Source: Myxococcales bacterium (lineage in GTDB: Bacteria; Myxococcota_A; Polyangia; Fen-1088). From it: a stretch of DNA of 61,549 nt. Position numbers and translations under genes: made by a program. Shown here one piece after another: positions 8,480 through 50,095 of this stretch. Under the pieces are notes generated by a model, which ran no database searches, was not told where the DNA came from, and saw only the letters and a program-made list of their open reading frames with translations. The stretch is taken from assembly GCA_025350815.1 (NCBI GenBank), contig JANXXE010000124.1, positions 1 through 61,549 of the forward strand, in the 5' to 3' direction. Position 1 is the first letter of the stretch, and every line of letters begins with the position of its first letter.

Positions 8480-10822
8480 CTACAGCGGCACGCGGCGCAG
8501 GCGCAGGGCGTTCGCTATCACCGACACAGAACTGGCACTCATCGCCGCGCTGGCCAGCATCGGGCTTAGCAGCGCGCCGAAAAACGGATACAAAACGCCC
8601 GCGGCGATGGGCACACCCAGACTGTTGTAGACAAATGCGGCGAACAGATTCTGGCGGATGTTCCGCATGGTGGCGTGGCTCAAACGACGGGCGCGGGCGA
8701 TACCGCGCAGATCGCCTTCCAGTAGCGTCACGCCCGCGCTTTCGATCGCGACGTCGGTGCCAGCGCCCATCGCGATGCCCACATCGGCCTGCGCCAGCGC
8801 CGGGGCGTCGTTGACCCCATCACCCGCCATCGCGACCACGTGCCCGGCCGCCTGCAAGGTCTTGATGACCGCCGCCTTCTGCGCGGGCAACACCTCGGCC
8901 TCGAGACCGTCGAGACCAAGGGAATTCGCGACCGCCCGTGCCGTGGCCCGGCCATCGCCGGTCAGCATGATGACCCGCACGCCGGCCTCGTGAAGCAACC
9001 GGATGGCCTCGGGCGTGGATTCCTTGATGGGATCCGCGATGCCGACCAGACCCGCCAACCTTCCATCGACGGCGACCAGCACCACCGTCTGGCCTTGGCC
9101 GCGAAGATCGTCGGCGTGGGCGGCCAGGTCCCCCAGTTGCAAGCCGCGTTCGTCGAACAAACCCGAACTGCCGACGATGACGTGCCGGCCGTCGACGGTG
9201 CCCGCGATGCCGCGGCCGGGAAAGGCCTGGACGTCCGTCGCGTTCCCGGGGCCAATCCCACGGGCGACCGCCGCAGCGACCATGGCACCGGCCAGCGGGT
9301 GCTCACTGCCACGCTCAAGACTGGCGGCCAGAAACACCAACTGCGCCTCGTCGCTGACACCGGCGACCGGTACCAGCGTGACCACCCGAGGTTTGCCCTC
9401 GGTCAGCGTGCCAGTCTTGTCAACCACGAGGACGTCCACCTTCTCAAGCACCTCCAGCGCCTCGGCCTGTTTGAACAGGACGCCCATTTGCGCGCCCCTA
9501 CCCAGGCCAACCATGACCGACATCGGCGTCGCAAGACCGAGTGCGCACGGACACGCGATGATTAATACCGCCACGGAATTCACCACCGCGTAGGCCAGGC
9601 GCGGCTCGGGGCCCCACACGCCCCACACAATCGCCGTCCCGATGGCCACGACGGCCACGGCGGGGACGAACCAGGCGGCCACTGCGTCGGCCAATCTTTG
9701 GATGGGCGCGCGGCTGCGCTGCGCCTGCCCGACCATCGCGACGATCTGCGAAAGCACGGTGTCGGCCCCGACACGCTCGGCGCGCATCAACAACACACCC
9801 GTTCCGTTCACGGTTCCGCCAATAACGCGACGACCAGGGGCCTTCGCCACCGGAAGCGATTCACCTGTCAACATCGACTCGTCGATGGCGCTGGTGCCTT
9901 CGAGCACGAGACCGTCGGTGGGCACGCGCTCGCCGGGGCGCACGCGCAGGCTGTCACCCGGGCGAATCTCGTCGATCGCCACGTCCTCGTCGCTGCCGTC
10001 GCTGCGCACCCGGCGGGCGGTTCGGGGCGAAAGCCGCAGCAGGGCCCGGATGGCGCCGGACGTGGCACTGCGCGCGCGTAGCTCGAGCAATTGTCCGAAC
10101 AGCACCAGTGTGACGATGACGGCCGAGGCCTCGAAGTAAACCGGCCCGGCCCCGTGAACCCGAACGTTGACCGGCAACCAGCCCGGCGCCAGCAGCGAGA
10201 CCAAACTGAAGACAAACGCCGACCCGGTGCCCAGTGAAATCAGCGTGAACATGTTCAGACTGCGATGGCGCACCGACGCCCAGCCGCGCTGGAAGAACGG
10301 CCAGCCACCCCCCAGCACCACGGGGCTGGCAAGTAACAACTGAAGCCACAGAAGGTTGCGCGGCGCCAGGCCGTGCATCAGCGATCGACCCGGCAGCATG
10401 TCGGACATCCCCAAGAACAGCAGCGGCGCGGTCAACACCACGCTTGCGCGAAAACGTCGGGTCAGGTCGACCTGTTCGGCGTTGGGCCCGTCACTGACCG
10501 ACGGCATCCGCGGCTCCAGCGCCATCCCGCACAGCGGGCAATCGCCAGGGCCGGCGCGCACGATCTCGGGATGCATCGGACAGGTGAAGGTCGCAGCGGC
10601 CGGCGGGGCGGGCCTGGGCGCCGGCATGGCGTGCGAGCCCGGTTGCGCCAGATAGCGCTGCGGATCGACGGAGAACTTCTCGCGACACGCCGGCCCGCAG
10701 AAGTAGTACGTTTGACCGGCATGCGCGAAACTGCCGCCGTTCGCATGGCCTGGAACGACCTTCATGCCACATACCGGATCCGTGACCACGGGATCCGCAC
10801 CGACCTGTGGCAAAGACTTCAT
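8480..10822 (-). CDS. copA: Copper-translocating P1B-type ATPase with YHS and heavy-metal-binding N-terminal domains
   Basis: The 780-residue protein has, in order, a YHS domain (DPVCGMKV, then [12 protein letters not shown], about 14-55), a small heavy-metal-binding domain (TCPMHPEIV...CPLCGMAL, about 79-107), and a full P-type ATPase core. The core has the TGES actuator motif, the membrane CPC motif (ACPCALG), the phosphorylation site DKTGTLTEG, the SEHPLAGA motif of P1B pumps and [14 protein letters not shown]. It lacks a ferredoxin-like HMA domain; the YHS and HMBD modules replace it, as in many environmental copper or silver exporters. Monovalent copper export from the cytoplasm is the likely role. 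ATG 10822 gives a compact start; a longer in-frame extension overlaps the divergent gene. Confidence 0.93.
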
Positions 10823-12142
10823 GTCCGGCTGATTCTGACAGCCACGCTGTCGATGTCGATGGCCACATCGCTGTATCCGCGCGACGCGCGGGCGCAACAC
10901 GTCCACCAGGCGGCCCCCGAGGGGGCAACGCCGCCCGCAACAACCCCAGACGTTTCATTCGGCGCCCTGGAACTGCAGCGACTGGCCGCCGGAACGGCCT
11001 GGCAGCCCGAAAGCGTTCCGCACGCCGGTTTCCACGCGACGGCGGGCGACTGGAACCTGATGTTCCACGGATTGTTGTTCGCGGGCTACGACATGCAGGG
11101 CGGTAACCGCGGATCGTCGTCGGGCGTCGGCATGGGCTGGCTGATGGCGATGGCCGACCGGCGCCTGGGCACAGGTCACTTCGCCGCGCGGGTCATGCTG
11201 AGCCCCGAGCCGTTGACCGTCGCCAACGGTGGCTATCCCCTGCTGCTGCAGACGGGCGAGACTTACAAGAACCAATCTCTCATCGACCGGCAGCATCCGC
11301 ACGACCTATTCATGGAAATCGCCGCCATTTACACCATGGATCTCGGACCCGCGACGGCGTTGCAACTGTACGCCGCTCCGGTTGGCGAGCCGGCCCTTGG
11401 TCCGCCCGGCTTTCCCCACCGGATTTCGGCGGCGTCCGATCCGATGGCGCCCATCGGCCACCACTGGCAGGACTCGACGCACATCAGCTTCGGCGTGCTG
11501 ACGGCGGGATTCGTGACCCGCCACCTGAAGCTAGAGGGTTCCTGGTTCAATGGCCGCGAACCCGACGAAAAACGCTCGGACATCGAACTGCACACGTTCG
11601 ACTCGTTCGCGGCGCGCCTTTCAGCCAGCCCAGTCCCGTCGCTGGTGGGCCAGGTTTCTGTCGGCTATTTGTCGGGGCCGGAGGCGCTGGCACCTGACCA
11701 ATCGGTCCGGCGGGTGACCGCTTCCGTCAGCCACTACCAGGCCTTTTCCTCGGGTGGTCACTGCGCCACCACGGCCGCGTACGGGTACAACAAGGAAGAG
11801 GGCGAATTCGGCGCGAGTTCGGCGCTGCTGGAAACCGACGTCAACCTCGACGGGCGCAATGTGATCTTCGGGCGCGCCGAGTACGTACGCAAGGCCGGCA
11901 ACGCACTGGCGCTTCCCGGCGATCTGCAACGCTTCTTGTTCGACCTCGGAACGGTGTCGGTCGGCTACCTGCGAAACCTCGGCGCCTTCGCCGGCGTGCA
12001 GCCGGGCGTCGGCGTGCGCGGAACGGTCAATCTGCTGGCCCAGGGGCTGGAACCGTTCTACAGCTCACGCCATCCCCTGGGCGCGATTCTCTATCTGCGC
12101 CTCGCCTCGGCGGCGACCACCGGCGGCCACAGCCACAACTGA
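10745..12142 (+). CDS. Predicted outer-membrane beta-barrel protein, copper-locus associated
   Basis: The mature protein (from about ARAQHVHQ) is rich in alternating hydrophobic and aromatic residues, His, Gly and Tyr, has strand-like segments throughout, and ends in GGHSHN. This suggests a metal-related outer-membrane barrel. No enzyme motif is visible. The start is unsure. ATG 10745 gives an in-frame leader whose hydrophobic stretch ([16 protein letters not shown]) would serve as signal peptide, but it overlaps the divergent copA start by 78 bases. ATG 10853 leaves too short a leader, and a CTG at 10829 would give a normal-length one. The peptidase gene follows 5 bases after the stop. Confidence 0.68.
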
Positions 12143-16446: not shown

Positions 16447-18003
16447 ATGAACGGGAACACGCCGCAGCCGGTGGCGGCGTCCGATCCCGCCGCAGGTGTG
16501 CGCGAGCCGCAGATTGGGGACAAGATTGGCTCGTACCGTCTGCTGCGCATGATTGGCGAAGGTGCGGCGGGCCGCGTCTTCGAGGTCGAACACCTGAAAG
16601 TCGGCCGCCGCGCCGCCATGAAGATCCTCGCGCCGGGGCATGCCGCGCGTCCGGGCGCCATCAAGCGCCTGTTCAGCGAGGCCCGCGCCGTCAACAAGAT
16701 CAACCACCCGCATATCGTCGAGGTCACCGACCTTATCCAGGCCGAAGACGAAGGCGACATCAACGCCATCGTGATGGAACTGCTGGAGGGAGAGTCTCTC
16801 GGCCACGCGATGCAGCCGCCCGGCGCGATGGGGCCTGAACGCTACGTGCCCATCATGGTCCAGGTCGCAGGCGCCCTGACCGCCGCCCATGCGGCCGACT
16901 TCGTGCATCGAGATCTCAAGCCCGACAACATCTTCCTGACCGCGCGCGCCGGTCAGCGCGACTACGTCAAGCTGCTGGACTTCGGCCTCGCAAAATCCAT
17001 CGCGGGCGATCTGGCGATCAGCCCTGCGCCGGCAGGACCGGTGTCACTCAGCACGGCCATGCCGCCGCCCATGTCCGCGGCCGAGCCCCAGAAGGCCTCG
17101 CGCAGCACCATCGTTCACGCCACCGCAGACGGGACTTTCGTGGGAACCCCCGCCTATGCCTCACCCGAGCAGGCCGCCGGCAAGCCCCTTGACCGTCGAA
17201 CCGACATCTATTCGCTGGGCGTGATCTTGTACGAACTGCTGTGCGGCCGGCTGCCGTTCGAAGGCAACAATTTCGGCGAGTACCTGGTCAAACACATCAC
17301 CGCGCCGGTGCCGCCACCGCCTGCCGACGTCATGCGTTCCAGCATCGGGCGCCAGCTGTTCTCGGTGGCCGAGCGATGCCTGGCCAAGAACCCGGCTGAT
17401 CGCTGGGCCTCGGCCGCAGAACTGACGGCCGTGTTCGATTCCCTGGCCGCAAGCGCGTCGTCGATGGAGAGCCCGCGCATCAGCACGGCCGCTGCCTTGG
17501 CCAGTCGGTCGAAAAAGTGGCCCGCGATCGCCGCGTTTGCCGCCGCAGCCCTGGTCGCAGGCGCCCTGGCCTGGGTCCTGTTGTCGTCCGGCGGTCCCCA
17601 CCTCGCCCGCAGCACGGCGCGCGCTGTCGAGGCCCAGGCGACCGGGCCCGTGGTCGTGCCCCTTGTGTTCGACAAATCAGTTGTGATCACCTTCGAATCG
17701 GATCCTCCGGGCGCCGAAACGCGACGGGTGGGCGATCCCGATCTTCTGGGCCTCACCGACTTCAAGGTCACCAGACAGGCCAGTGACAAAGAGGAGGAGA
17801 TCGAGATGGTGCTGCCGGGCTATGTCCCGCGGCGATTCAAGTTGCTACCCAACGCCGACGCCACCGTCGGGGGCAGGCTGCGACGGATCGTCGCCACCCA
17901 GGAGCCCAAAAGGGCAGAGTCCGCCGCGCCGTCTGGGGCGGCGCCGCCCGCGTCCCGGCACAAGGTGACGCGGGGCACGACACTCAATCCTTTCGCGCCG
18001 TAG
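16447..18003 (+). CDS. Hanks-type Ser/Thr protein kinase, membrane-anchored
   Basis: The 518-residue product begins with no gap after the previous kinase gene. Kinase motifs are intact: IGEGAAGRVFEVE, the VAIK-like lysine in RRAAMKIL, HRDLKPDN and DFGLAK. An insert of about 40 residues sits between DFGLAK and the GTPAYASPEQ activation segment, longer than in the first kinase. After the kinase come one hydrophobic helix (AIAAFAAAALVAGALAWVLL), a PEGA-like periplasmic domain (FESDPPGAETRRV) and the tail GTTLNPFAP. The pair probably evolved by duplication and may phosphorylate each other; this is inference. Confidence 0.92.
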   Translation: MNGNTPQPVAASDPAAGVREPQIGDKIGSYRLLRMIGEGAAGRVFEVEHLKVGRRAAMKILAPGHAARPGAIKRLFSEARAVNKINHPHIVEVTDLIQAEDEGDINAIVMELLEGESLGHAMQPPGAMGPERYVPIMVQVAGALTAAHAADFVHRDLKPDNIFLTARAGQRDYVKLLDFGLAKSIAGDLAISPAPAGPVSLSTAMPPPMSAAEPQKASRSTIVHATADGTFVGTPAYASPEQAAGKPLDRRTDIYSLGVILYELLCGRLPFEGNNFGEYLVKHITAPVPPPPADVMRSSIGRQLFSVAERCLAKNPADRWASAAELTAVFDSLAASASSMESPRISTAAALASRSKKWPAIAAFAAAALVAGALAWVLLSSGGPHLARSTARAVEAQATGPVVVPLVFDKSVVITFESDPPGAETRRVGDPDLLGLTDFKVTRQASDKEEEIEMVLPGYVPRRFKLLPNADATVGGRLRRIVATQEPKRAESAAPSGAAPPASRHKVTRGTTLNPFAP

Positions 18004-29680: not shown

Positions 29681-31483
29681 TCAGGCCTGCGGCAACTTGA
29701 CCGTGACCGCGGTGCCTCGCCCTGGGGCGCTCTCGACGCTGACGGCGCCGCCCATCGCCTCGACCAGGTGCTTGACGATCGCCAGGCCCAGGCCCGTACC
29801 CCCGCGATCCCGGGAACGCCCCTCGTCGACACGGTAGAATCTTTCGAACAGACGCGGCAGGTGCCTGGCCTCGATCCCGGGCCCGTTGTCGGAGACCGAG
29901 ATCAACACAGCCGCTCCCGCTGCCTTGGCGGCGATGCTGATCTCGCCGTTGTCACCGCTGTACTTGACGGCGTTGTCGACCAGATTGGCCAGGACATGCT
30001 CAAGCGCCTGACGGTCCGCGCGCACGGCGGGCAGATTGTCCGGCAGCTCACGCGCCACGCGCGTCTTGCGCTTGCCGGCCGAGCCGCGGAACAGCAACAC
30101 GACCTGGGCGACGACCGCGCCGACGTCCACGCATTCCAATTCCAGCTTGAAGTGACCCGATTCGATGCGCGACAGGTCCAACAGATCGTTCAACAAGCTG
30201 ACCAGGCGCTCCGCGTTGCGCTCGGCCATTTCCAAAAAACGCTCCGCGCTCGCGGGATCCTGCAAAAGTGCGCTGCGAGCGGTCTCGACGCCGGTGCGCA
30301 GCGCGGTCACCGGCGTGCGCAGCTCGTGCGAGACGTTGGCCACAAAATCCCTTCTGACCGCCTCCAGGCGCCGAATCTCGGTGACGTCCACGAACACCAC
30401 CACGCAGCCGGCCGGCACGCCCGACAGCGGCGCTGCGTGCACCAACAACCGCCGCAGCCGGTGAATGCCGACCTCGATCTCTCCCGTCACAGGCGCAGCT
30501 GACGACAAGGTCGACTCGATGATCACGGCAAGCTCGGCATTGCGAACCACGTCCGCAAGGGGCCGACCCACCAGATCCGTCGGATGGTCCGGCTCGGCCG
30601 TGTAGCCCGGCTCGACATGCGCCAGCAGCATCATTCGCAGGGCGCTGTTCGCAAGGACGATGGTCCGCCCGGCGTCAGCCACCAGGACGCCTTCGTCCAT
30701 CGCCTCCAGAATCTGGCCCAGTCGATCGCGCTCGGCCCGCAGCGCCCCCAGCGTCCCCGACAGGTTGGCCACCACCTGATTCAGCGTGCGGCCAAGGTCC
30801 CCAAGCTCGTCCCCCGATTCCAGATGAACCCGCGCCTCAAGATCCCCCTTCGCCATGCGCCGCGTGACCCGGGTGACGTCGCGCAGGCCCCTGGTCATCA
30901 TGTGCGCGACGATGCTGGATATCAGCAGCGCCAAGACCAGGGCCAGCACAGAGCCCGTGGCGAGGACGCGGTGCAGACGGTCGATAGCCTGATCCACCTC
31001 CGTCAAGGACAGCGCCACCCGCACCACGCCAACACGCTGACCCGCGCGCGAAAACGCCGCCGCCTGATACAGCATTCGCCTTCCCACCGTCGCGCTCATG
31101 CGCTCGCTGGCACCGTGCCCAGTCCGCATCGCCTCGGCTACCTCGGGGCGTGTGGCGTGGTTGTCGATCCCGGGCAATTCACCGATGCCGACCTCCGAGT
31201 CACCGATGACGACGCCATCGCCGCGGACGACGGTCACACGGGTCGCCGAGCGGCGACCGAGTTCATCGGCCAGGCTGTCCCAGCCGCCGAAATCATTCAG
31301 GGCCGCGCCGTGGCCCTCGACCTGACCGCCAACCAGGGTCAATCGCACAGCCAGATCGTTGCGCATCAGCGCGCCCCACTGGTCGTTCAGCCCGTGGGTC
31401 AGGTAGACGTCCGCACAAACCACCGCCGTGGCGATCAGGCCCGCCGACGCAAGGAACAGCTTTGTGCGGAAGCCCCAACGCAT
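29681..31483 (-). CDS. phoR: Phosphate-regulon sensor histidine kinase PhoR
   Basis: The 600-residue protein has an N-terminal membrane helix, a periplasmic domain of about 130 residues, a second helix (VLALVLALLISSIVAHM), a HAMP domain (about 195-250), a PAS domain (about 265-370), HisKA with the His in NVSHELRTPVTALR and HATPase_c with VSDNGPGIEARHLPRLFERFYRVD (quoted in part) and GTGLGLAIVKHL. This is the PhoR/WalK-type arrangement. It is last in the phosphate operon, 17 bases after a pstB gene, which supports PhoR. No phoB gene lies in the window, so the response regulator must be elsewhere. Confidence 0.9.
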   Translation of the reverse strand: MRWGFRTKLFLASAGLIATAVVCADVYLTHGLNDQWGALMRNDLAVRLTLVGGQVEGHGAALNDFGGWDSLADELGRRSATRVTVVRGDGVVIGDSEVGIGELPGIDNHATRPEVAEAMRTGHGASERMSATVGRRMLYQAAAFSRAGQRVGVVRVALSLTEVDQAIDRLHRVLATGSVLALVLALLISSIVAHMMTRGLRDVTRVTRRMAKGDLEARVHLESGDELGDLGRTLNQVVANLSGTLGALRAERDRLGQILEAMDEGVLVADAGRTIVLANSALRMMLLAHVEPGYTAEPDHPTDLVGRPLADVVRNAELAVIIESTLSSAAPVTGEIEVGIHRLRRLLVHAAPLSGVPAGCVVVFVDVTEIRRLEAVRRDFVANVSHELRTPVTALRTGVETARSALLQDPASAERFLEMAERNAERLVSLLNDLLDLSRIESGHFKLELECVDVGAVVAQVVLLFRGSAGKRKTRVARELPDNLPAVRADRQALEHVLANLVDNAVKYSGDNGEISIAAKAAGAAVLISVSDNGPGIEARHLPRLFERFYRVDEGRSRDRGGTGLGLAIVKHLVEAMGGAVSVESAPGRGTAVTVKLPQA

Positions 31484-31500: not shown

Positions 31501-32277
31501 TCAACCGTAACGACCCTCGATGTACTCAGCCGTCCGCGGGTCGACCGGATTCAGAAACAAATCCTCGGTGCGGCTGTGCTCGATAAGCTCGCCCATCAGC
31601 ATGAAGATGCTTTCGTCGCTGGAACGCCGCGCCTGCGCCATGTTGTGCGTGACGATCAGAATCGTGTACCGACCGCGCAGCTCCCACATCAGCTCCTCGA
31701 TCGCGCGGGTGCCCTCGACGTCCAGGGCCGAACACGGCTCGTCCATCAGAATAACTTCCGGCTTTAGCGGCAGTAGCCGCGCGATGCACAGCTTCTGTTG
31801 CTGTTCGAGTTGCAGTCCTGTGGCCCGCCCCTTCAGACGATCCTTCAGGTCGTCCCACAGGCCCACCTCGCGCAGGCTCTTCTCGACCACCTCATCCGTG
31901 TGGCCCTTGCCCAATTTGCCCTCGGCGTGAATCCGAAGACCAAAGACGATGTTCTCGTAGATCGAGAGCGGCAGCGGATTGGGCCGCTGGAACACCATCC
32001 CGACCGATTTGCGCAACTCGATGAGCGAGATGTCGGGATCGTAGATGTTCTTCTGTAGAATTCGGATCTCACCCTTGGTCGTGACGTAGCCGTAGCGCTC
32101 GTTGACCCGGTTGAAACACCGAAGCAACGTGGTCTTGCCACAGCCCGACGGCCCAATCAGCGACGTGATAAGCCCGTTCTTGATGCCCATGCTCACGTTC
32201 TTGAGCGCCTGGAACTTGCCGTACCACAGCGACAGGTCCTGCGTCTCGATGCTCAGCGCGGGCGCGGCGTCGGTCAT
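31501..32277 (-). CDS. pstB: Phosphate ABC transporter ATPase, paralogue A: intact Walker/Q/H motifs, degenerate signature
   Basis: The 258-residue protein is clearly PstB by overall sequence. Walker A (GPSGCGKTT, 42-50), Q-loop Gln97 (GMVFQRPNP), Walker B with Glu180 (ILMDEP), D-loop (SALD) and H-loop His211 (VTHNMAQA) are normal. The ABC signature, normally LSGGQQQR, reads LQLEQQQK (Leu155-Lys162): both glycines and the serine are lost. As a homodimer it could not form a proper ATP sandwich. It overlaps the other pstB gene by 4 bases (ATGA), so the two are made together. With paralogue B's intact signature it can build one consensus site. Codon use and length show no sign of decay. Confidence 0.93.
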   Translation of the reverse strand: MTDAAPALSIETQDLSLWYGKFQALKNVSMGIKNGLITSLIGPSGCGKTTLLRCFNRVNERYGYVTTKGEIRILQKNIYDPDISLIELRKSVGMVFQRPNPLPLSIYENIVFGLRIHAEGKLGKGHTDEVVEKSLREVGLWDDLKDRLKGRATGLQLEQQQKLCIARLLPLKPEVILMDEPCSALDVEGTRAIEELMWELRGRYTILIVTHNMAQARRSSDESIFMLMGELIEHSRTEDLFLNPVDPRTAEYIEGRYG

Positions 32278-33044
32278 CCAAAGATCCCGTTAACGTAGTC
32301 GAGCGTGTGCTTGCTGGCGGGCGCATCGGAAAAGATCACTTCATTTCGGTCGACCTCGACGATGTTGCCGTTCCACAGGAACATCGTGCGACTGGCCAGG
32401 CGGCGCGCCTGCTGCACCAGGTTGGTCACCAGGATGATCGTCATCTCGTTCTTCAGTTCCTTGAGAACATCCTCGATACGCATCGTCGTCACCGGATCGA
32501 TGGCGATCGAAAATTCATCCAGGCAAAGCACTTCCGGCTGGTGCGACAGGGCGCGCGCAATCGTCAGGCGCTGTTGCTGGCCGCCCGACAACTTGGTGCC
32601 CAGGCTGTCCAGGCGATCCTTGACCTCATCCCACAGCGCCGCCTGCCGCAGGCAGCGCTCGATCAGCCCATCCAAATCGTCCTTGCCTCGAACGCCGGCC
32701 GCCCGCGGGGCGAAGGCGACGTTGTCGTAGATGCTCAGGGGCAGACCCACCGGCAGTGGCGCGACCATACCGATCCGCCGCCGCAGCTCGTACACGCTTT
32801 TGACTTGTTGGACATCCTCACCGTCGACCAGGACCTTGCCCCCCACCCGCGTGCCCGCTGTGAATTCAATGGTCCGGTTGATACAGCGAAGCAGCGAAGT
32901 CTTGCCCGACTGCGCCGGACCGATGATGGCGAAGATCTCGTGCGGCTCGACGTGAAAGGAAATGCCGTGGATAACCTCCTTTGCGCCATACCTCAGGCGC
33001 AGGCCGTCGACCTCGATCTTCTTGCCAGGCGAATCCGCGGTCAT
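32274..33044 (-). CDS. pstB: Phosphate ABC transporter ATPase, paralogue B: intact signature, degenerate Q- and H-loops
   Basis: The 256-residue protein is a second PstB-like ATPase. Walker A (GPAQSGKTS, 42-50), the signature LSGGQQQR (152-159) and Walker B with Glu177 (LCLDEF) are kept. The Q-loop reads GMVAPLPVG, with Pro96 in place of Gln, and the H-loop reads VTNLVQQA, with Asn208 in place of His. The D-loop is IAID rather than SALD. Loss of the Q and H residues predicts poor hydrolysis at its own Walker site. ATG 33044 overlaps the pstA stop by one base (TGATG); ATG 33050 is also possible. A much longer in-frame extension runs through pstA and is rejected. Confidence 0.92.
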   Translation of the reverse strand: MTADSPGKKIEVDGLRLRYGAKEVIHGISFHVEPHEIFAIIGPAQSGKTSLLRCINRTIEFTAGTRVGGKVLVDGEDVQQVKSVYELRRRIGMVAPLPVGLPLSIYDNVAFAPRAAGVRGKDDLDGLIERCLRQAALWDEVKDRLDSLGTKLSGGQQQRLTIARALSHQPEVLCLDEFSIAIDPVTTMRIEDVLKELKNEMTIILVTNLVQQARRLASRTMFLWNGNIVEVDRNEVIFSDAPASKHTLDYVNGIFG

Positions 33045-33928
33045 CACCATTTCTTCCGCGAGCGCAGGTAGACGCGCAACGAAATCGACAGGGCGTTGGC
33101 GAACAGCACCGTCGCCAGCAAGATCACCGCAATCGCGTAAGGCAAGGCCTCGGGCGCGTTCGTGACCTGTGTCGTCACCGTATAAAGATGCATCGACAGC
33201 GCCATGCACTGGTCCCGCAGGTTGTAGGCAAACAGATCGCCCTCGGGGATCTTCTTGAAGAACACGGCGCCCGTGAACATGATGGGCGCCGTTTCGCCCG
33301 CTGTGCGCGACACCTGCAGGATGACGCCCGTCAGAATGCCGCTGATCGAGTTCGGCAGGACGATGCGGCGGATGGTCTGCCAGCGGCTGGCGCCGACGTT
33401 CCAGCACGCCTCGCGAAAAGAAACAGGCACGGCGGCCAGAGATTCCTTGGTGCTGGCGATGATCACCGGCAGGGTCATGATGGCCAAGGTCAGCGACGCC
33501 GCCAGTATGGAACGGCCCATTCCCGCGAAGATCACGAACGCGCCCAGGCCGAACAGGGCGTGGACGATGCTGGGCACGCCCGCCAGATTGACGACGGCCA
33601 GGTTGATGATGCGGGTGAACCAACTGTCGCGGGCGTATTCGTTCAGGTACACGGCCGCCAGCACCCCAATGGGCGCCGAGATACACAGGGACATGACGAC
33701 CAGGTAAATCGTCCCAAGGAACGCCGACCAGACGCCGCCCCGGCGCATGCCACCCACCGGATTGGTGACCAGAAAATCCCAGGACAGCAACGGCCACGCC
33801 CGGGAGACCAGGTGAAAAATGATCAGCAGCAGCGGCACAACCATCGCCACGGCCATCGCGCCGAAGATCCACTTGGCGATGATCTCGTTGCGCTGCTTGC
33901 GCCGGACCAGGGGCGTTTGCGTGAACAT
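33044..33928 (-). CDS. pstA: Phosphate ABC transporter permease PstA
   Basis: The 294-residue protein has six hydrophobic segments and the ABC permease coupling motif region (EACWNVGASRWQTIRRIVLP), followed by the family's SRTAGETAPIMFTG. It pairs with PstC to form the inner-membrane channel for phosphate. It lies 12 bases after pstC and overlaps the start of pstB paralogue B. Length is normal for PstA. Confidence 0.95.
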   Translation of the reverse strand: MFTQTPLVRRKQRNEIIAKWIFGAMAVAMVVPLLLIIFHLVSRAWPLLSWDFLVTNPVGGMRRGGVWSAFLGTIYLVVMSLCISAPIGVLAAVYLNEYARDSWFTRIINLAVVNLAGVPSIVHALFGLGAFVIFAGMGRSILAASLTLAIMTLPVIIASTKESLAAVPVSFREACWNVGASRWQTIRRIVLPNSISGILTGVILQVSRTAGETAPIMFTGAVFFKKIPEGDLFAYNLRDQCMALSMHLYTVTTQVTNAPEALPYAIAVILLATVLFANALSISLRVYLRSRKKW

Positions 33929-33940
33929 CGGCGGCGTCCG

Positions 33941-34912
33941 TCAGCGCTTTCGGATGCCCTTGACCACCAAGTCGGCGGTGAAGTTCACGACGAAGGTTAT
34001 GGAAAACAGAAGAATCCCGATGATGAACAGGACCTGATAGTGCTGCGAGCCAGCCGCCGCCTCGCCAAGTTCCGCCGCTATGGTGGCGGTCAGCGTCCGG
34101 ACGGGGTCGAAGGGGCTGTGGGGAATGTTGACGGCGTGTCCCGTGGCCATCAGCACGGCCATCGTTTCACCGACCGCGCGCCCCACGCCCAAAAGAACAG
34201 CCGCCAGCAGGCCGTTCTTCGCCGCCGGCAGCAGCACCCGGTAGACGATCTGCCAGCGCGTGGCACCCAGGGCCAGCGCGGCCTCGCGGTACGAATCCGG
34301 CACCGCCTTCAAGGCGTCCTCGCCAATGCTGACCATGATGGGCACGCTCATCAGCGCCAGCAGCAAGGCACCGTTGAGGACATTCAAACCGACGGGAACG
34401 CGAAATACCTTCTGGATCAGGGGATTGAGCACCCCCAGACCGATGAAGCCCCAGACCACCGAAGGAATCGCGGCCAATAGCTCGATGACTATCTTCAGGC
34501 CCTCGCGCATGCGCCTCGAACAAAACTCGGAAACGAACACGGCCGCGCCCAACCCAAAGGGCACGGCGATCAGCATCGCCAGCGTGGTGACGCTGAAGGT
34601 CCCGACGATGAGCGCCAGCACGCCGTAGCGCACGTTGCTCTGGGACGTCGGATACCACTCGGTGCTGAACAGAAACTGCCGCAGGTTGAGGCCGTGAAAC
34701 AGGAAGCCCGCCCCTTCGCGCAAGACGAAGAAGAAGATCCCGAAAACAAAAACGATGGCGCTGACACCGCACAGACGGATGAGCCATTCCAGCGCGGACT
34801 CGCCCACCAGTTCCCATCGACGACGCCGCGACGCCGCGCCCCGCGCGACCACGCTGGCCCGCTGCCGCCGTTCGGCCGCTGCGGCGGCTAGGTCGATCGC
34901 TCCGTCACCCAC
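33941..34912 (-). CDS. pstC: Phosphate ABC transporter permease PstC
   Basis: The 323-residue protein starts with a basic cytoplasmic tail of about 45 residues and then six membrane segments. The EAALALGATRWQIVYRVLLP coupling helix and GVGRAVGETMAVLMATGHA are typical of PstC. It forms the channel with PstA. The start is GTG 34912, 3 bases after the pstS stop, so translation is coupled. Each permease's coupling helix may meet a different ATPase, given the two unequal PstB proteins. Confidence 0.95.
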   Translation of the reverse strand: MGDGAIDLAAAAAERRQRASVVARGAASRRRRWELVGESALEWLIRLCGVSAIVFVFGIFFFVLREGAGFLFHGLNLRQFLFSTEWYPTSQSNVRYGVLALIVGTFSVTTLAMLIAVPFGLGAAVFVSEFCSRRMREGLKIVIELLAAIPSVVWGFIGLGVLNPLIQKVFRVPVGLNVLNGALLLALMSVPIMVSIGEDALKAVPDSYREAALALGATRWQIVYRVLLPAAKNGLLAAVLLGVGRAVGETMAVLMATGHAVNIPHSPFDPVRTLTATIAAELGEAAAGSQHYQVLFIIGILLFSITFVVNFTADLVVKGIRKR

Positions 34913-34915
34913 GGT

Positions 34916-35857
34916 CTACTTCTTGGGCAGGGGAACGTATCCGCTTTTCTCGACGATCATCTGACCGACGTCGGACAGGATCCAGTCGAGGTACTTCTTG
35001 ACGTCGGCGCTGGGCTCGCCCGGCGTGTACATGAACATCGGGCGGGCAATCGGGTAGGTCTTGTCGAGGGTGGTTGCGATTGCGGGCATCACACCGGGCT
35101 CGCCCTTCTTGCGGGACACCTTGAGAATTTTCACGCTTGGGGTGGCATACCCGAGGCCGCTGTAGCCGATGGCGTTCGGAGTCTTCGACACCAGGTCCAC
35201 CACGTCTTTCGAGCCATTCATGTCCAGCGAGCCCGCTTTGTAGTCGGCCTTCTTGCCAAGCACGGCCTCGCGAAAGTAGTGGTAGGTACCCGAATTATTC
35301 TGCCGGCTGGCGCGCACAATCTTTTCACCCTCGCCGCCCGGGATGGCTTTCACCCCCAGTTGCGACCACTTATCGATCTTGCCGCCCTCGCGGTAGATCT
35401 CCCCCAGCTCCTCGAGGCTGATTTCATTGAGCGGGTTGCTCTTGTGGACATAAATGGAGAGGGCGTCGTAGCCGATTAGTAATTCCTTCGGCTCCTTGCC
35501 CGTGGCTTTCTTTGCCGCCTCGATCTCCTTGGGCTCCATCGTGCGGCTGGAATTCGCAATATCCGCCGTGCCGTTGATCAACGCCGCGATCCCGATGCCC
35601 GACCCGCCGCCCGACACCTCGATCGAGGTTGCGCTATCAACCTTGCCGTAATCTTCGGCCCACGCCTGTGCCAGATTGATCATCGTGTCGGACCCGATGT
35701 TCTGGATCGCCTTCTTCTTGCCGCCGGCAGGACCGGGGGCCGCCGCGCCCGGCTCGGCCGACGCCCCTTCGGATTCCTTCTTCTTGCAACCCACGAAACC
35801 CAGCGCCGCGCAGGCGGTCAAGGTCACAAAACACACGAATGTCGTCGGTTTGGTCAT
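34916..35857 (-). CDS. pstS: Phosphate-binding lipoprotein PstS
   Basis: The 313-residue protein has a lipoprotein signal (lipobox GFVGC), a Lys/Gly/Ala linker and a PstS-type type II periplasmic-binding fold. Phosphate-site motifs are visible: NIGSDTM, GGGSGIG, ANSSRTM and SRQNNSGTYHYF. It captures phosphate outside the inner membrane and hands it to PstCA. An AGGAG site precedes the ATG. It lies 21 bases after the phoU-arsC gene stop. Anchoring by lipid is less usual than a free periplasmic PstS of enterics but common elsewhere. Confidence 0.95.
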   Translation of the reverse strand: MTKPTTFVCFVTLTACAALGFVGCKKKESEGASAEPGAAAPGPAGGKKKAIQNIGSDTMINLAQAWAEDYGKVDSATSIEVSGGGSGIGIAALINGTADIANSSRTMEPKEIEAAKKATGKEPKELLIGYDALSIYVHKSNPLNEISLEELGEIYREGGKIDKWSQLGVKAIPGGEGEKIVRASRQNNSGTYHYFREAVLGKKADYKAGSLDMNGSKDVVDLVSKTPNAIGYSGLGYATPSVKILKVSRKKGEPGVMPAIATTLDKTYPIARPMFMYTPGEPSADVKKYLDWILSDVGQMIVEKSGYVPLPKK

Positions 35858-35878: not shown

Positions 35879-36973
35879 TCAGTCCTTGTCGCCGAGAATG
35901 GCAACAACAAGATCTTGAATGTTCGCCTGCAGGAACTGGTACGTGGCCTCGTAGGCCGCGCGTACATCTGCGGGTGTCCCTTTCACAGTCGACGGATCCT
36001 GGACGCTCCAGTCCAGGCAGACCGCCTTCGTGGGCGGCGGCGGGAAAACCTTCTGGGCTTCCTTCGCCAGGGCCACCACGATCTGGTAGTGGTCGAAGTG
36101 CGGCACCTGGTGGGCGGCCTTCGACGTGTTGCCCGAGATGTCGATTCCCTTTTCCTTCAGGAATGAGACCGTTGCCGGGTCCACGGGCCGCGGGTCCAGG
36201 CCGGCACTGGCGAAGATGAACTTCGGCTGCCCCAGCGAATATCCGATGCCTTCCGCCATCTGGCTGCGGCACGAGTTGTGCTCGTCCACGAACAGCAGCC
36301 GAAAGGTTTCGGTACCCCGGTGCTTGGCGTACTCGCCCGTGCACATATACAGAACTTCCTGGCAGATGGCCTTTGCCTGATCGGAAACCCGTTCGAAACG
36401 GTTCACGATGGTCATCAGAGGGCTCAGCGCTTCAAGCGGAATTTTCCTCTGCTGCTGAAGCTGCACCAGCTCGTCATTGACCTTGTGGCGCAAAACGTCC
36501 ACCTGGTCCTCGGCTTCCATCGTCTTCTTGGCCAGATCGGCGTCCTGAGTCACGAAGGCCTGCACCGCACCCCGCAACATGGGCAGCGCCAGATTGGCGA
36601 TCGCCACGAAGCGGTCGTGAGGAACTTCGAACTCCATCTCGCTGATGGTCAGAATCTGCCGCGCGATGCTCTCGGCATAGTCGCCGATGCGTTCCAGTTC
36701 GAGGTTGATCTTGATGGTGACGTACGCGAAGCGAAGATTGCCGCCCACCGGCTGTTGGCGCAGCAGGAATTCCAGGCACAGGCGGTCGACTTCCTTTTCC
36801 AGCTCGTCGATGCGCTGATCGCGCAGAATCACCGAATAGGCGAGCTTGCGATTCCTTTCCGCCAGCGCCTGCAAGGAACTACGCAGGGCCACTTCGGCCA
36901 GGCCAGCCATCTCAGTCACCTTGCCGCGAATACGGGCGATGTCGCGTTGAAGGCTTTCCTCGAAATGGGTCAC
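35879..36973 (-). CDS. phoU: PhoU fused to an arsenate-reductase/LMW-phosphatase-like domain lacking the nucleophile
   Basis: Residues 1-215 form a complete PhoU with both metal-binding motifs (ERIGDYAE near 94-101 and ERVSDQA near 194-200). Residues 224-364 are an ArsC/LMW tyrosine-phosphatase-like domain: the phosphate loop reads VDEHNSCRSQMAEG, followed by FASAGLDPRPV and WSVQDPS with the general-acid Asp326. In active enzymes the loop begins with the nucleophilic Cys (CTGNSCRS); here that position is Asp230, with Glu231 and His232 next, while Cys235 and Arg236 remain. Catalysis by the usual route is therefore not expected; the domain may sense phosphate or arsenate. The start is GTG 36973, first gene of the pst operon, preceded by a Pho box. 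Confidence 0.9.
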   Translation of the reverse strand: MTHFEESLQRDIARIRGKVTEMAGLAEVALRSSLQALAERNRKLAYSVILRDQRIDELEKEVDRLCLEFLLRQQPVGGNLRFAYVTIKINLELERIGDYAESIARQILTISEMEFEVPHDRFVAIANLALPMLRGAVQAFVTQDADLAKKTMEAEDQVDVLRHKVNDELVQLQQQRKIPLEALSPLMTIVNRFERVSDQAKAICQEVLYMCTGEYAKHRGTETFRLLFVDEHNSCRSQMAEGIGYSLGQPKFIFASAGLDPRPVDPATVSFLKEKGIDISGNTSKAAHQVPHFDHYQIVVALAKEAQKVFPPPPTKAVCLDWSVQDPSTVKGTPADVRAAYEATYQFLQANIQDLVVAILGDKD

Positions 36974-49648: not shown

Positions 49649-50095
49649 ATGACGCCCACCCGGACGATTTTTTTCCTGTGTTCGGGCAACTACTACCGCA
49701 GTCGCTTCGCGGAAATTCTGTTCAACGATCTGGCCGCGCGGGCCACGCTGCCGTGGCGGGCGGATTCGGCCGGTCTGCAACCGAACTGCCGCGCGCGCAA
49801 TCCGGGGCCGATATCACCCCACGCTGTAGCGGGCCTTGTCGCGGCTGGCATCACCCTACCCCAGCGGCCCCGTTATCCCCGCGACGCGACAGACGCCGAC
49901 TTCCAGACGGCCGGGCTGGCGATTGCGCTCAAGGAATCCGAACACCGCCCCCTGATGCAGCAGCGATTCCCGCACTGGGCGAACAGCATTCGTTACTGGA
50001 ACGTCGATGACGTGCAGGATGCGTCCCCCGACCGCGCGTTGCCCGAGCTAGCGCGCCTGGTGCGATCACTGGTCAGGGAAATCCATTTGGTTTGA
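49649..50095 (+). CDS. Low-molecular-weight protein-tyrosine-phosphatase-like protein
   Basis: The 148-residue protein has an intact phosphate loop near the N-terminus, FLCSGNYYRSRFAE, with the nucleophilic Cys and Arg of CxxxxxR. A DSAGLQ segment follows, as in LMW phosphatases. The C-terminal acid region (VDDVQDASPD) could supply the general acid. It may dephosphorylate tyrosine or arginine residues, or small molecules. In contrast with the PhoU-fused domain, its catalytic Cys is kept. It lies 13 bases after the fumarase gene. Confidence 0.85.
   Translation: MTPTRTIFFLCSGNYYRSRFAEILFNDLAARATLPWRADSAGLQPNCRARNPGPISPHAVAGLVAAGITLPQRPRYPRDATDADFQTAGLAIALKESEHRPLMQQRFPHWANSIRYWNVDDVQDASPDRALPELARLVRSLVREIHLV

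Follow-up and report, generated by a model that had tools for sequence, protein, structure and literature searches.

The only PhoU detected in the window genome carries a C-terminal tail derived from thioredoxin-type arsenate reductase (ArsC) in which all three catalytic cysteines have been replaced, the nucleophile by an Asp that is held across the family of such fusions (the window is the whole stretch of 61,549 nucleotides that was analysed). The best explanation, which is moderately probable, is that the tail is a retained pseudoenzyme that would serve the Pst-PhoU-PhoR complex as a non-catalytic module, for interaction or allostery. At the sequence level, this account draws on the fusion itself, the loss of catalytic residues, the conservation of the Asp, purifying selection and operon linkage. 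The fold is predicted, and the role of the Asp, the interaction partner and the order of events are inferred.

The fusion gene and the active site of its tail

The phoU-arsC fusion gene has a GTG start, occupies positions 35879..36973 of the minus strand and encodes 364 residues. In a profile search its product is the only match to the PhoU model in the window genome, which is 97.7% complete. Residues 1-215 (36329..36973, minus strand) match the Pfam family PF01895 (E 4.7e-38) and score 151.5 bits with the curated full-length PhoU model of NCBIfam, TIGR02135, above its cut-off of 130.25. Both E(D)XXXD metal motifs of PhoU are present. In the first, E94-R-I-G-D98 (36680..36694, minus strand), E94 and D98 are invariant across the 46 fusions described below; in the second, E194-R-V-S-D198 (36380..36394, minus strand), D198 occurs in at least 90% of them. 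The gene also sits in a pst operon, and by all tests run (model score, metal motifs and operon location) the protein is a PhoU. The tail comprises residues 222-364 (35882..36310, minus strand) and matches the low molecular weight (LMW) phosphatase family PF01451 (LMWPc) with 40.9 bits against a cut-off of 23.2, as well as the ArsC model TIGR02691 with 71.4 bits, below the equivalog cut-off of 174.3. Pfam, NCBIfam and the motifs thus bear out the initial annotation, which had described a complete PhoU with both metal motifs followed by a domain resembling ArsC or LMW phosphatases. A frame or fusion artefact can be dismissed, as four relatives (L068-L071, 60-69% identical) have the same single open reading frame; another relative, L060, is 69% identical to the window protein. 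A porin gene (Porin_O_P) lies upstream on the same strand, and a scan upstream of the fusion gene found no promoter or terminator.

The AlphaFold2 model of the window protein has a mean pLDDT of 94.9 and a pTM of 0.69, the latter making the relative placement of PhoU and tail less certain. In structural comparisons (VIA-align), the N-terminal part superposes on PhoU 1t72 with Z 29.7 and rmsd 1.9 over 214 aligned residues. The tail is predicted to adopt the ArsC fold, superposing on B. subtilis ArsC (1jl3) with Z 21.3 and rmsd 1.9 over 136 aligned residues and scoring lower against LMW tyrosine phosphatases (Z about 17-18). The first strand of this fold ends at residue 230. None of the PDB sequences that match the fusion profile spans both domains. 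A further structural match of the tail (Z 18.4) is chain FW of the Trypanosoma mitoribosome (PDB 7pua/9hny), an assembly part with an LMWPc domain, which is possibly a parallel case of the fold in structural use.

Residue equivalences in the active site were taken from an alignment to B. subtilis ArsC (1jl3). The phosphate loop of the tail, LFVDEHNSCRSQMAEG, covers D230-E-H-N-S-C-R-S237 (36263..36286, minus strand). Asp230 (codon 36284..36286) stands at the position of the nucleophilic Cys10, Cys235 at that of Cys15 and Arg236 at that of Arg16, and the resolving cysteines Cys82 and Cys89 are replaced by Ala303 (36065..36067) and Phe310 (36044..36046), all on the minus strand. Measured against LMW phosphatases, the CX5R loop with its nucleophilic Cys has become DX5R. 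The general acid of the DP loop is present as D326-P327 (Asp326 codon 35996..35998, minus strand), which is not a family-wide feature, since Asp is kept here in just 12 of the 35 type-B members that lack the nucleophilic Cys. N233 and S237 are also kept. The alignment agrees with the earlier reading of Asp at the nucleophile position beside a persisting Cys235, Arg236 and DP-loop Asp326, and extends it by the loss of both resolving cysteines. Thioredoxin-coupled arsenate reduction cannot run without the three redox cysteines. The window domain is very probably neither an active ArsC nor an active phosphatase, and its annotation should name neither arsenate reductase nor phosphatase.

The window genome has two other LMWPc genes. 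One, on contig C75, is an ordinary phosphatase with the loop CLGNICRS; the other lies in the window at 49649-50095 (plus strand), has the intact CX5R loop CSGNYYRS and matches PF01451 with 34.5 bits.

Two families of fusions and a suggested order of decay

The 46 different PhoU-ArsC fusions, that of the window among them, came from searches of three taxa, namely the window's phylum (379 genomes), its class (318) and a second phylum (241), and of one genome collection. Across 17 genomes of the window's own family there was no match covering both domains, the matches being to stand-alone ArsC or to PhoU without a tail. Type B, to which the window fusion belongs, numbers 39 fusions that form one clade in the trees of either domain (SH-aLRT 99% for PhoU; 100/99 for the ArsC domain), and is also found in the second phylum (the genome of L061), which shares no genome handle with the window's phylum. 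The seven sampled fusions of type A (L037, L052, L059, L078, L083, L085 and L117) fall outside type B in both domain trees, which leaves a single origin of all PhoU-ArsC fusions unsupported. Both types have the same domain order and occur in pst operons; however, type A follows one PstB only, with an intact LSGGQ signature, wherever this could be read, whereas type B goes with a PstB pair. The nucleophile position of type A holds Cys in five of seven and Ser in two. Type A came solely as a by-product of the type-B searches, so its counts say nothing about abundance. One genome (L126, G243:C3) has both a type-B fusion (Cys) and a type-A fusion (Ser), at 10460-11668 and 16763-17890, about 5 kb apart and each with its own pst operon.

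Among the 39 type-B fusions, the nucleophile position is occupied by Asp in 31, Gly in three, Glu in one and Cys in four, an acidic residue thus standing there in 32, which is more than chance; in 22 stand-alone relatives it is Cys in all but one, which has Gly. Because Asp recurs in 31 of 39 homologous fusions and these come from separate genomes, a local mutation or a sequencing error in one contig is excluded. The tabulation of this residue that had been proposed with the initial annotation thus does not give the outcome that would have refuted it, namely that nearly all homologous fusions keep Cys.

Members of type B differ in how much of the active site they retain. L074 has the complete ArsC set (Cys10, Arg16, Cys82, Cys89 and DP), and L033, L034 and L072 keep Cys10, Arg16 and DP with Cys82 and Cys89 gone. 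Asp is combined with Arg in the window and in L032, L073, L076, L068, L061 and L115, and in most others the Asp stands without an Arg. When the ArsC domain is placed in a tree with stand-alone outgroups, the earliest branches are L074 and then L033/L034, followed by the Asp-bearing rows, an order that is in part weakly supported. In the full-length tree, rooted on type A, the Cys-bearing rows are nested between two Asp groups, a topology that needs two or three separate Cys-to-Asp changes. A single clade of non-Cys rows (less L031) has an AU p of 0.015 in the full-length tree, for a group named after the tree had been seen. The ArsC-domain tree allows one or two Cys-to-Asp events; the full-length tree disfavours a single one. 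Given that Cys-bearing members branch first in the domain tree and that L074 keeps the full ArsC set, the pattern suggests a stepwise decay from an active enzyme, in which the reducing cysteines would have gone first, then the nucleophile and then the Arg. In two type-B members with Gly at the nucleophile position (L053 and L054), the second metal motif of PhoU is gone as well, E194 and D198 being replaced by Ile and Ala.

Conservation of the Asp and candidate roles of the tail

Over the 35 non-Cys type-B rows, the Asp230 column ranks 10th of 143 in conservation and is 89% Asp, against rank 122 for Arg236, 106 for C235 and 91 for D326. By this comparison, selection acts on the Asp itself and not on the residues of the oxyanion site. 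The loop Arg is kept in 8 of 35 (window, L068, L061, L114, L115, L032, L073 and L076) and lost in 27; its position is Leu in L069, Lys in L070 and Leu in L071, each of which is 60-67% identical to the window protein and has the same operon layout. The Cys15 position (window Cys235) holds Cys in just 10 of 35. These figures bear on the initial annotation's view of a non-catalytic oxyanion-binding domain, in which the dead loop would bind phosphate or arsenate without turnover and report the cytoplasmic anion to PhoU. That the domain is non-catalytic holds for the window and most of the family, but oxyanion binding as a conserved function is not supported: the Arg disappears from 27 of 35, near relatives included, while the Asp stays, which rules anion binding out as a function common to the family. 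In addition, a carboxylate in the loop is expected to oppose anion binding. What speaks for such a sensor is the position of the gene in a phosphate operon, the eight members that keep the Arg and the presence of N233, S237 and DP in the window. It is unlikely on balance, as is the discrimination of arsenate from phosphate as a family role, though the few Arg-keeping members, the window among them, might perform it.

The tail is under purifying selection by the measure of substitution rates, as dN/dS is well under 1 in every unsaturated pair. In eight such pairs it is 0.14-0.39 for the ArsC domain and 0.11-0.29 for PhoU, rough NG86 counting values with high dS in some pairs; one pair saturated in PhoU and one saturated in both domains were left out. 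Not one of the 39 aligned type-B tails is truncated, and four columns of the ArsC domain are invariant. This makes it improbable that the domain is a useless passenger that drifts with no present function, as might be supposed from the decay of its catalytic residues and from its greater variability (mean column entropy 2.14 bits, against 1.85 for PhoU). The conservation of Asp230 also argues against drift, and so does the persistence of the fold. L043 is 28% identical to the window protein and its tail has no ArsC model match in NCBIfam; it is still predicted to have the ArsC fold (pLDDT 91.9; match to 8p6m with Z 18.6, rmsd 1.8 and 129 aligned residues), a prediction that counts as support and not as proof, since its alignment included ArsC-like rows.

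Two further possibilities concern the chemistry of the Asp. It might be a weak nucleophile, the tail then being a slow acid phosphatase or a phosphoryl acceptor. A precedent is the C215D mutant of PTP1B, which reportedly keeps low activity at acidic pH via its Asp, but the Arg and the DP acid are both gone in most Asp-bearing members and this reading is extremely unlikely. Alternatively, the acidic loop, commonly VDE or VDD, might bind a metal, as the two metal motifs of PhoU or receiver domains do. Of the 35 non-Cys members, 22 have an acidic residue (Glu or Asp) at position 231; however, conservation is high at residue 230 alone (rank 64 of 143 for 231 and 116 for 232), and a second conserved acid is not apparent in the loop or the DP region, so a metal site is very doubtful.

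The favoured account, a pseudoenzyme tail that works as a module of the phosphate-signalling complex, would begin with one fusion event that joined a complete thioredoxin-type ArsC to the PhoU of a Pst operon. The original gain may have been the positioning of a reductase at an importer that lets arsenate leak in. Most descendants would then have lost the resolving cysteines, next the nucleophilic Cys, and next the loop Arg and the DP acid, while Asp became fixed in place of the nucleophile and the fold persisted. On structural grounds, the carboxylate of the Asp may fill what was once the oxyanion hole, where it would cap the first helix and the amides of the loop and keep the loop in the shape it takes with ligand, even when no ligand is there. 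The tail is most likely a module of the Pst-PhoU-PhoR complex, a fixed part of PhoU for interaction with, or allosteric action on, the paired PstB ATPases and/or PhoR. E. coli PhoU touches both PstB and PhoR and relays the state of the transporter (PMC4423584, PMC5775613); these contacts are established in that species only. The retention of the loop Arg in the window and seven other non-Cys members counts against this account, as do the nesting of the Cys rows in the full-length tree and the plain PhoUs of sister operons that have the same kind of PstB pair.

The PstB pair and relation to known systems

The operon of the window is compact and runs on the minus strand. The fusion gene is followed by pstS for the phosphate-binding protein (34916..35857; TIGR02136, 231 bits), the permease genes pstC (33941..34912; TIGR02138) and pstA (33044..33928; TIGR00974), pstB_2 (32274..33080) and pstB_1 (31501..32277). 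A gene for a PhoR-like histidine kinase with HAMP, PAS, HisKA and HATPase domains (29681..31483) comes 17 bases past pstB_1, and relatives of this kinase adjoin type-B operons in L130, L131 and L132. In the family at large, pst genes lie within 1.5 kb of 38 of the 39 type-B genes, with the fusion gene either ahead of pstS-pstC-pstA or between pstS and pstC-pstA. The exception is L049, which is accompanied by two PstB-like genes of another kind. This divergent fusion (L049 / L136) sits on a long branch, the neighbouring PstB-like motifs, EFSVGEQQ and LTVPERQ, are both atypical, and pstS and pstC were not found in its neighbourhood; it is possibly a repurposed copy.

The two PstB proteins of the window have complementary defects. 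PstB_2 has a normal LSGGQ but has lost the Q-loop Gln (MVAPLP) and carries Asn for the switch His (VTNLVQ), while PstB_1 is normal in Walker A/B, Q-loop and switch His but has LQLEQ for LSGGQ. Such adjacent pairs are present in all 18 type-B operons read far enough (the window included, L049 left out): PstB_2 keeps LSGGQ, with the Q-loop Gln lost and Asn at the switch His, and in PstB_1 both Walker motifs (A and B), the Q-loop and the His are intact, with LxLE(Q/E/A) in place of LSGGQ. A PstB_1/PstB_2 heterodimer would, judging from these motifs, combine a canonical ATP site with a degenerate one, comparable to asymmetric ABC proteins; no description of an asymmetric heterodimeric Pst ATPase made of such a pair was found. 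The same kind of pair occurs in 14 genomes of two other families, in the order pstA-pstB_2-pstB_1 and then pstS and/or pstC, both proteins being seen in 13 of these operons because PstB_1 is not covered in L173. The downstream gene is a plain PhoU in all ten that are readable. The degenerate pair is therefore not dependent on the fusion, and since plain PhoUs serve operons with the same pair, the ArsC tail is not needed for such a transporter. A more specific proposal is that the half-degenerate PstB pair, with one canonical and one dead ATP site, and the PhoU with its dead ArsC tail form a distinct Pst signalling module, in which the Asp-held tail would contact one particular PstB and pass the transport state to PhoR. 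This is speculative and rather unlikely.

Searches of open-access papers turned up none that describes a PhoU-ArsC fusion or an ArsC pseudoenzyme. If the module account is true, a detoxifying enzyme would have been recruited for signalling at the very importer that admits its former substrate. The fusions form a natural series from L074, a complete ArsC, to L043, which has no catalytic residue, all but one being in the same kind of operon. This series makes the role of the extra domain testable and bears on how PhoU reads the Pst transporter. It would also supply dated intermediates for the passage from enzyme to pseudoenzyme, with a Cys-to-Asp change that is held family-wide and was perhaps fixed more than once.

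Among known systems, the window protein shares with PhoU (TIGR02135; PDB 1t72, 4q25) its full length, both metal motifs, an equivalog score, the pst operon and an adjoining PhoR-like kinase, and differs in the addition of a 143-residue ArsC-derived tail. That tail shares fold and sequence (71 bits) with thioredoxin-type ArsC (TIGR02691; PDB 1jl3, 1jf8), but Cys10, Cys82 and Cys89 have become Asp, Ala and Phe and the score stays below the equivalog cut-off. It has the same fold as LMW protein tyrosine phosphatases (PF01451), with the CX5R position and DP loop recognisable; however, the nucleophilic Cys is absent and the structural match is weaker than to ArsC. PTP1B C215D likewise has Asp for the nucleophilic Cys of a CX5R loop, but it is an engineered laboratory mutant of a single eukaryotic enzyme from another family, whereas the Asp of the window's family is natural and held across that family. 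A pst-phoU operon with neighbouring pstB genes also occurs in Firmicutes, as in the tandem PstB1/PstB2 of E. faecalis (PMC12096839). In contrast to the PstBs of the window, each of which lacks motifs that the other retains, these keep all motifs intact (PMC12096839).
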